This document shows positions 19,691 through 21,608 of a stretch of DNA of 35,565 bases, piece by piece; position 1 is the first letter of the stretch, and the number at the start of each line of letters is the position of its first letter. Under the pieces are notes generated by a model. The model was not told where the DNA came from, ran no database searches, and was given only the letters and a program-made list of their open reading frames with translations. The position numbers and the translations under genes were made by a program. This DNA comes from Porticoccaceae bacterium (GTDB lineage Bacteria; Pseudomonadota; Gammaproteobacteria; Pseudomonadales; Porticoccaceae): positions 1 to 35,565 of the forward strand of contig JANQKW010000151.1 of assembly GCA_028280905.1 (NCBI GenBank), in the 5' to 3' direction.

Positions 19691-20788
19691 ATGATAAAAA
19701 AGATTGCGCTACTCGGCCTATTGTTGGCTTTTCTCGGTTGCGGCGAGCGCCCGGCTGATAGCGGCGGCCATGCATCGGCAACGCCTGAGCAGACGTTTAA
19801 ATGGAAGTTGGTAACCACCTGGCCGAAAAATTACCCGGGGCTCGGCGAGGCGCCGGAAAACTTCGCCAAAATGGTCGGCGAGATGAGCAACGGCCGGCTG
19901 CAGGTTAAAGTCTTCGGCGCCGGGCAAATGGTTCCCGCGCTGGAAGTGTTTGACGCGGTATCCCAAGGCACGGCGGAAATGGGCCACGGCGCAGCCTACT
20001 ATTGGACGGGAAAAATTAAAGCCGCGTCATTTTTTACCTCGGTTCCATTTGGTTTAAATGCCCAGGAAATGAACGGCTGGCTGCATTATGGCGAGGGTAT
20101 GGCGTTGTGGCGAGAAGTTTACGCGCCCTTCAACCTGGTTCCGTTTGCCGCCGGCAATACCGGCGTGCAGATGGCGGGATGGTTCAATCGTGAGATCAAT
20201 TCGCTGCAGGACCTCCAGGGGTTGATCATGCGCATTCCCGGGTTGGGGGGCGAGGTATTTAACCGCGCCGGGGGCGAGGCGGTTAATATTCCCGGCGGCG
20301 AACTCTATACGTCTATGCAAACCGGGGTGATCGACGCTACCGAGTGGGTCGGGCCGTTCAATGATCTGGCGTTTGGTTTGCACCAGGTCGCCAAATACTA
20401 CTATTACCCAGGCTGGCACGAGCCGGGCCCCACGCTCGAATTGATTGTTAATAAAGCGGCTTACGATTCCCTGCCCAAAGACCTGCAGCAAATCGTCGCG
20501 TCCGCCGCCCGCGCGGTCAACCAGGATATGCTGGATGAATATACGGCGCGCAACAATACGGCGCTTGAGCAGCTGGTTAATGAACATGGCGTACAAGTTC
20601 GCCGCTTGCCCGACGATGTGCTGCAGGAGCTGGCCAGAATCAGCGAGCAGGTAAAAGAAGAAATCGCCGCGGAGGACCCGCTGTTCAAAAAGATATACGA
20701 GTCTCAGCAGGCTTTCCAAGAGCAGGCGGCGGAATACCACAATATTTCGGAGGAAGCCTATTTCGAGGCCCGCCGGCTGACGGACTAA
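19691..20788 (+). CDS. TRAP-type substrate-binding lipoprotein (DctP/TakP-like)
   Basis: The 365-residue protein belongs to the TRAP transporter solute-binding family. Visible segments are KWKLVTTWPKNYPGLG at the mature N-terminus, VFGAGQMVPALEVFDAVSQGTAEMGHG, and MRIPGLGGEVFNRAGGEAVNIPGGELYTSMQTGVIDATEWVGP, as in TakP-like 2-oxo-acid binders. The signal ends FLGC (C17), a reasonable lipobox, so it is probably membrane-anchored. No membrane subunits (DctQ/DctM) are nearby, so it is an orphan. AAGGACAACTCCC precedes the ATG, 15 nt after uvrD, so co-transcription with uvrD is likely. The substrate is not known. Confidence 0.88.
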   Translation: MIKKIALLGLLLAFLGCGERPADSGGHASATPEQTFKWKLVTTWPKNYPGLGEAPENFAKMVGEMSNGRLQVKVFGAGQMVPALEVFDAVSQGTAEMGHGAAYYWTGKIKAASFFTSVPFGLNAQEMNGWLHYGEGMALWREVYAPFNLVPFAAGNTGVQMAGWFNREINSLQDLQGLIMRIPGLGGEVFNRAGGEAVNIPGGELYTSMQTGVIDATEWVGPFNDLAFGLHQVAKYYYYPGWHEPGPTLELIVNKAAYDSLPKDLQQIVASAARAVNQDMLDEYTARNNTALEQLVNEHGVQVRRLPDDVLQELARISEQVKEEIAAEDPLFKKIYESQQAFQEQAAEYHNISEEAYFEARRLTD

Positions 20789-20878
20789 CAGGTGGCGGCT
20801 GAGGTGTAGTTGTTGAGTCGTTTGACGCTGCGGTCCGAAGTAAATTGGGCATACTTTTTACAGGTCGGTGGCGGCCGT

Positions 20879-21074
20879 GGTCGGGTAAGGGCTTCGGAAC
20901 ACGCTGTGAATACGTCCCTGGTCACAATTGCTCCCGGCAATTTGCGACACTTCCTCCATCCTTGGAGGTCGTAAGCTCTGCGCCGGCTTGACCGCCAAGG
21001 ATGGCGGAAATGCCGATATTGCAGGAGCAAATATCGGCCCCTGCCGGCGAAGGTTCCGAAACCCTTACCCGACC
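20879..21074 (-). repeat. R7, structured repeat copy with two nested inserts
   Basis: The closing stem is 22 bp with one mismatch (20879-20900 with 21053-21074). The core is 152 nt, 100 more than in intact copies. Insert 1 (about 20920-20970) interrupts hairpin 1 and carries CCTCC-ATCCTT-GGAGG (20953-20968) and AATTGC-TCCCG-GCAATT (20926-20942). Insert 2 (about 20989-21038) interrupts the loop of hairpin 2 and carries CCGCC-AAGGAT-GGCGG (20992-21007) and a 10-bp stem CCGATATTGC/GCAAATATCGG with loop AGGA. The inserts are related to each other in inverse orientation. Confidence 0.88.
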
Positions 21075-21154
21075 CCAACCTTCAAACCAACCGCCGTACT
21101 GCTTTTGTGGCAAAAGCACCCTCTTAAGTAGTAGAGCGGTAGATCTGTAGAATT

Positions 21155-21254
21155 GCCTGGGGAAGTGCCTTTGCAGACCGTCACCCGCAGGGAAGCGGGT
21201 GTCGAGCTCCCAGGGATGGGTTTACAGCGTGTCTGCAAAGGCACTTCCCCAGGC
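21155..21254 (+). repeat. R8, structured repeat copy (pair C4, right member)
   Basis: The closing stem is a perfect 24 bp (21155-21178 with 21231-21254). The core 21179-21230 is 52 nt. Hairpin 2 is CACCCGC, loop AGGGAA (21189-21194), GCGGGTG, identical to R4. Hairpin 1 is CCC, loop AGGGAT (21212-21217), GGG, where R4 has TAC/GTA: a three-base-pair compensated change between close copies. Confidence 0.93.
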
Positions 21255-21287
21255 GATTCGCCACCGACCTAGAAAAGTATGCCCAAT

Positions 21288-21608
21288 TTATTCCGATCGG
21301 CTTTGGAGTCGTTTCAGAAAAACTGATATTTCTTTTTCCGTTTGCTTGTCGCCTTTGGCATGGGCGATCATCAATCCTTTCTCAAGATAGCCCCGGGCGT
21401 CCTCGTTTGCCCCCGTGGCTATCAGGCTTCTGCCGAGTAGCTTATAAGCCGCCGAGTAGTCCGCGTCCTGCTCGATACAGGATTTCAGGTGGGGTATTGC
21501 TTTTTGGTAAGCCTTTTCGTTGAAATAGGCGCTGCCGAGCCCAAACCTCAGCATCGCGGAATCCTGGCCGGCCGCCAGCATCTTCTCTAGGCCATCCGCG
21601 ATAGACAT
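21288..21608 (-). CDS. Small TPR-repeat protein
   Basis: The 106-residue soluble protein consists mainly of tetratricopeptide repeats, for example FGLGSAYFNEKAYQKAIPHLKSCIEQDADYSAAYKLLGRSLIATGANEDARGYLEKGL. No signal peptide or enzymatic domain is visible, so it probably works as a cytoplasmic adaptor. It starts 7 nt after the trkH stop codon and is the last gene of that operon, so it may be linked to K+ transport only by transcription. Its stop codon lies within the terminal inverted repeat of C4. Confidence 0.82.
   Translation of the reverse strand: MSIADGLEKMLAAGQDSAMLRFGLGSAYFNEKAYQKAIPHLKSCIEQDADYSAAYKLLGRSLIATGANEDARGYLEKGLMIAHAKGDKQTEKEISVFLKRLQSRSE

Follow-up and report, generated by a model that had tools for sequence, protein, structure and literature searches.

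Among the closest described counterparts of the repeats reported here are the GTAG- and CGTC-tagged REPs, short, high-copy extragenic palindromes of gammaproteobacteria that often occur as inverted dimers (PMC3733652), a description that also fits our two families, R and I. Some REPs sit inside other palindromes, namely A. variabilis GTAG-15, T. roseum GTAG-23 and H. neapolitanus CGTC-1 (Di Nocera et al. 2013, PMC3733652). A further point of comparison lies in the hairpin loops. The published motif for Rsm/CsrA sites is CANGGANG (PMC6849547), and CsrA/RsmE sites present an ANGGAN hexaloop with the SELEX consensus RUACARGGAUGU (PMC7652899).

Our searches of the literature on nested and RAYT-associated repeats, on CsrA together with REPs and on repeats of marine genera found no description of R or I, and searching by the motif letters of R and I gave only primers among the matches listed. 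In Rfam, the window (the whole stretch of 35,565 nucleotides that was analysed) had no match at the gathering score; relaxed searches at R7-R8 gave sub-threshold matches only, mostly to miRNA hairpin models. The features of the locus are as follows.

19691 to 20788, plus strand: DctP-like gene, convergent with the short ORF listed last.
20842 to 21289, no strand assigned: composite MITE-like unit of two inverse R elements, R7 filled and R8 empty, as read from the sequence; its terminal inverted repeats, AAATTGGGCATACTTTT.. GGTCGGTGGCG / CGCCACCGACC ..AAAAGTATGCCCAATTT, enclose R7 and R8.
20879 to 21074, minus strand: R7, with long complementary arms GGTCGGGTAAGGGYTTCGGAAC / GTTCCGAAACCCTTACCCGACC, from the sequence, its folds and the R family census.
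20921 to 20971, minus strand: insert A, an I-element of 51 nt, reading GACCTCCAAGGATGGAGG AAGTG followed by hairpin II with a CGGGA loop.
20990 to 21038, plus strand: insert B (type B1), a canonical 49-nt I-element, reading GACCGCC AAGGAT GGCGG AAATG followed by hairpin II.
21150 to 21259, plus strand: R8, the second R of the composite, filled at neither site, from the sequence and repeats D2, D5 and D6.
21288 to 21608, minus strand: short TPR-like ORF.

Read on the minus strand, R7 is laid out as arm, CTTCGCCGGCAGGG, the 49-nt insert B, AAGCCGGCGCAGAGCTTA, the 51-nt insert A, CAGGGACGTATTCACAGCG and arm. Its core (20901-21052) is 152 nt long, and the two inserts account exactly for the 100 nt by which a preliminary description had found it to exceed the constant length of an empty R. 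That description placed one insert in each hairpin, which holds, with hairpins numbered from the other strand; only insert B lies truly in a loop, at the junction AGGG^AA of hairpin 1, while insert A borders the hairpin-2 loop on its 5' side (TA^CAGGGA). Insert A lies on the same strand as the AGGGA loops of R7 and matches the covariance model with E 3.7e-8; other R copies of this genome are filled at the same spot. Insert B is inverted relative to R7, carries an AGGA loop and a bulged A in its hairpin II and matches with E 1.3e-19, though this copy is itself part of the model's alignment. Its site and orientation recur in other genera. The fold of R7 is far more stable than those of shuffled sequences, with z-scores of -7.5 as DNA and -7.8 as RNA.

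Both hairpins of R8 are intact (ACCCGC-AGGGAA-GCGGGT and CCC-AGGGAT-GGG), and elsewhere in the genome its subfamily includes two copies that carry A (L396 and L397) and one that carries A+B2 (L395). The composite has a second, partial copy at about positions 1960-2276 of the window. There, at 1997-2062, lies a shortened R with a 24-nt core that has lost one arm of hairpin 1. We considered this copy as an excision scar of B1, but the loss of 8 nt by an empty R would fit equally well. Near relatives have DctP facing TrkH in convergent orientation across short spacers of often just tens of bases, and we found no R match in this gap; the composite is therefore a lineage-specific arrival.

R is abundant in the source genome: the hairpin-2-side pattern matched 315 places, against two for the reversed control, in a 3.74-Mb draft in which many contigs break at an R. 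Among fifty-eight of these copies with a readable core, each of the 696 stem positions counted forms a Watson-Crick pair and none a G-U pair, even though the stems themselves differ, and a T.Y mismatch is kept in fifty-six. Of the 146 genomes of the order, 56 carry the family according to the R covariance model; they belong to 41 of 92 genera, with Microbulbifer among the named relatives. Across twenty-eight loci from other genomes (one R each), 332 of 336 pairs are Watson-Crick and ANGGA is invariant in both loops. That G-U pairs are nearly absent favours a constraint at the DNA level; recent copying within the genome contributes to this scarcity, but it is equally evident at the loci in other genomes. 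R usually occurs as inverted pairs, and the consensus foot is CNTC, with CGTC in a subset only.

I has a two-hairpin structure of its own. The canonical form reads GACCNCC ANGGAT GGNGG AARTG, followed by a hairpin N8-GC-AGGA-GC-A-N8' in which the A after GC is bulged. The two inserts of R7 are inverse and homologous, as the preliminary description had it, with an alignment score of 50 against 15.3 ± 3.0 (maximum 30) in 2000 dinucleotide-preserving shuffle pairs. Its observation that the stems change in compensation while the loop is kept extends to thirteen diverse members, in which 99 per cent of cells are paired and thirty-eight double-sided changes occur against a shuffle mean of 8.9. Sliding the structure along the alignment gave at best 54 per cent paired, and a slide of one base about 40 per cent.

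The covariance model found forty-eight copies of I in the source genome, nearly all within R and at the same positions as in R7. This bears out the second-level family that had been proposed from R7 alone; a lack of other copies together with an alignment no better than shuffled sequence had been named as speaking against it; we observed neither. The further proposal that this family had grown inside R did not survive the census. Within the order, I is present in 49 of 146 genomes and 37 of 92 genera, frequently in places other than R, and some genomes hold at least 36-41 copies; one of these (G082, at least 36 copies) has them in tandem arrays. The hairpin-I pattern also matched seven viral contigs, some of which have a matching hairpin II as well. 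A search of plasmid records gave one match, from Halomonas, and a search of phage records none. In four genomes (G071, G107, G135 and G162; loci L267-L306 and L327-L344, bacterial family f36) I occupies three positions of another host repeat of about 100 nt or longer. I is thus an independent two-hairpin family that exists without R. Relative to neighbouring genes its strand shows no bias (10:8 and 8:8, a small sample). One copy (L193, G057:C80:37561-37609) lies inside a long ORF, 567 codons of which are in the stretch, and recalls the palindromes that are borne within genes in Rickettsia.

Comparison of filled and empty copies defines the insertion sites exactly. In all forty-five empty R copies measured, exactly 32 nt lie ahead of CAGGGA, while filled cores are 81, 83, 84, 132, 135, 106 or 157 nt long and so reflect additions of fixed size. 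Within the source genome these additions are 51 or 52 nt at site A, 49 (B1) or 51 nt (B2) at site B, or both. I always lies forward at site A, the 5' boundary of the hairpin-2 loop, and always inverted at site B, in the hairpin-1 loop (AGGG^AA or AGGG^AT). The same insert is found in R subfamilies with the stems GTCGAC, ACCCGC, GCCGGC and GCCAGC, and one subfamily can include copies both with and without I. B1 and B2 share an identical site and differ in the sequence of hairpin II, and B1 is nearly identical in sequence between the GCCGGC and GCCAGC stem contexts. There is also a third level. A 23-nt GTAG-tagged hairpin, CCAAAAGTAGGCGCCNNNNGGCG, interrupts B1 and B2 alike, in each case at GGMGGA^..^AATG; its eight copies occur only inside B1 or B2 (L408-L412; G000 contigs C18, C64, C121, C223, C260 and C279). 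The inserts are unlikely to be assembly artefacts, as they recur in independent assemblies. Filled and empty sites reveal no target duplication beyond a 1-nt (C) border ambiguity, so that I is not a MITE in the classical sense, and across fifty-four copies the borders are limited to Y at -1 and C at +1, with no tetra- or pentanucleotide target of the IS200/IS605 kind.

The same register is used in other genera. Outside f36, a stem of at least 6 bp encloses thirteen of fifty-four I copies, against 0.5 per cent in cross-paired flanks, a comparison in which the copies were found by sequence similarity, mostly with the I model built in this analysis, and which is more safely counted by genomes, as copies of one genome are not independent. 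Nearly all enclosed copies lie in the register ATC^..^CCT, in the source genome (G000) and in G010, G021, G029, G040, G109 and G134, with a 5-bp stem in G164; several of the hosts beyond the source genome are clearly R. Hairpin-loop copies in this register span at least four families, and at three loci (L080, L187 and L190) the hairpin is not obviously R. Most standalone copies of I lie outside palindromes. The R copy at locus L079 in G010 has a different insert, located 3' of hairpin 2. Inserts unrelated to I also occur at both R positions: a 23-nt hairpin occupies the hairpin-1 loop in G113 (L425 1267-1342), and a CCTGCCCC..TGCTTTGGG segment occupies site A in G134 (L424 1670-1785, L205). 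Together with the recurrence of I in the same register, these suggest that R loops are insertion hot spots.

We consider it probable that I is a short (49-52 nt), non-autonomous, REP-like mobile palindrome whose insertion targets exposed hairpin loops and which subsequently spreads along with R. On this model I would enter R at two fixed hairpin-loop spots, in one orientation each, and R, itself a mobile palindromic repeat, would multiply with and without I passengers. Insertion would take place on single-stranded, extruded hairpins, whose loops would be hot spots as the exposed part of the structure. The postulated mover is a strand-specific ssDNA transposase acting in trans, after which R and its passengers would be co-amplified. 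Both families have stem irregularities of the kind that Y1 enzymes read on ssDNA hairpins (the bulged A of I and the T.Y mismatch of R). These irregularities, the strand-specific orientation, the missing duplication and the preference for loops are what would be expected of ssDNA transposition like that of IS200/IS605 and RAYT systems (PMC8266576). Two observations speak against the model: none of the Y1 genes scanned is associated with R or I, and the majority of standalone I copies are found outside palindromes.

A fixed register could also arise without repeated targeting, from an old R+I composite or from gene conversion between R copies. I would then have entered R only once or a few times, with gene conversion and horizontal transfer since, and loop-targeted insertion would have no part in it. 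This account is a doubtful but real possibility. It agrees with the single orientation at each site, with the near identity of B1 across two stem contexts and with R+I in the same register in G010, G021, G109 and G134. However, it does not readily account for the other inserts that fill these sites in G113 and G134, for I in the loop register of hairpins not obviously R, for its three positions in the f36 host repeat, or for B1 and B2, which share a site yet differ in hairpin II.

The likeness to CsrA sites offers another explanation, in which transcripts of R and I would form hairpins that CsrA binds, and the inserts would tune the number of sites. In forty-five R copies of the source genome, both loops fit the published Rsm/CsrA motif with variation at the two N positions only, a match that was noticed post hoc and carries correspondingly less weight; the R loops at 20902-20920 and 21167-21242 of the window fit it too. 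Hairpin I of the I-element fits the same octamer in twelve of thirteen members, ANGGA is invariant in the R loci of other genomes, and some copies of R hairpin 2 (GTACAGGGATGT) match 12/12 positions of the SELEX consensus (PMC7652899). In predicted RNA, candidate GGA sites are exposed in empty R (hairpin 1) and in copies with A only, the latter alone showing extra exposed GGA loops. The same predictions have them buried or destroyed in copies with B or A+B, including R7. Insert B splits the hairpin-1 loop and so destroys its site, while its own GGA loops lie antisense, on the opposite strand; insert A separates the stem of hairpin 2 in R7; and the two inverted inserts are predicted to pair together, leaving the insert GGA loops with an unpaired probability of 0.00 in RNA of the R strand and of no more than 0.18 in RNA of the opposite strand. 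Nearly all insert sites would thus be buried in A+B copies. The usual inverted pairing of R, the lack of strand bias of I and the near absence of G-U pairs, which points to DNA-level constraint, also argue against binding as the function, and we regard this explanation as unlikely. For R7 itself, the suggestion that the inserts might add binding sites is contradicted by these models: most likely, the two inverted inserts rebuild and silence its hairpins and add no such sites.

We hold it to be quite unlikely that R and I both branch from a single large, so far undescribed mobile-DNA superfamily whose octamer loops serve as regulator sites when transcribed and also receive insertions of additional members. 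If true, the binding sites of a global regulator would be both spread and disrupted by hairpin-in-hairpin transposition.

We know of no enzyme that moves short bacterial palindromes outside the RAYT systems, and we searched for one near R and I. The only Y1 transposase of the source genome (L183, G000:C27:841-1161) is flanked by AAGTAAACTGTCCCCGG repeats unrelated to either family. The I and R models, run over 26 Y1 loci of I-rich genomes and the source genome and 29 of R-rich genomes, gave no I and one R, about what chance would give. At the cut-off used, no Y1 transposase was found in G082, G021, G113 or G077. GTAG is absent from the hairpin foot of both the I consensus (GACCNCCANGGATGG...) and the R consensus, and occurs only in the third-level insert. 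That the inserts are REP elements moved by a RAYT (TnpA-REP) is accordingly very unlikely: their hairpins are short, palindromic and strand-asymmetric with a conserved bulge, and the third-level element bears the tag, but I itself does not, no RAYT gene at the Y1 loci scanned is flanked by I or R, and several genomes rich in I or R are without Y1 transposases.

Nested insertion at fixed loop positions preserves legible evidence of the way in which short palindromes move in bacteria, and hundreds of filled and empty R and I sites make the choice of target testable. The loop consensus, identical to that of CsrA sites, raises the question of whether mobile repeats carry the sites of a global regulator around marine gammaproteobacterial genomes.

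Set beside the GTAG- and CGTC-tagged REPs, R and I differ in having no GTAG foot, in having two hairpins each with ANGGA-type loops, and in a nesting that takes place at fixed points of the loops and reaches three levels. They do share the strand-asymmetric mismatch or bulge of GTAG-REPs, in the bulged A of I hairpin II and the T.Y mismatch of R; not all REP groups require this feature. R does not show the combination that defines CGTC-REPs (a CGTC foot, an 8-9 bp stem with A/T at the first two positions, a 4-5 nt loop and a CCA tail), having instead its CNTC foot, a 6-nt loop and a second hairpin. Like the REPtron of TnpA-REP (RAYT) and its REPs (PMC8266576), R and I consist of hairpin DNA that is strand-specific, keeps an irregularity in its stem and shows no long target duplication, but they are without GTAG and without an associated RAYT gene. 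The palindrome-ended mini-elements derived from IS200/IS605 resemble I in their two near-end hairpins, one with an unpaired base, and in the lack of a duplication (partly after PMC8266576); for I, in contrast, no parent transposase was found and there is no conserved tetranucleotide target, only the Y..C borders. The CsrA-sequestering RNAs CsrB, RsmY and RsmZ have in common with R and I the ANGGA(N) hairpin loops, a closing C-G pair and several sites per unit (PMC7652899). Unlike those RNAs, R and I have no Rfam match, exist as hundreds of dispersed DNA copies with strict Watson-Crick stems and, in the orientation of the I inserts, are inconsistent with a single RNA strand. Mobile double-hairpin DNA repeats also occur in another genome compartment, as the double-hairpin elements and GC clusters of fungal mitochondria.
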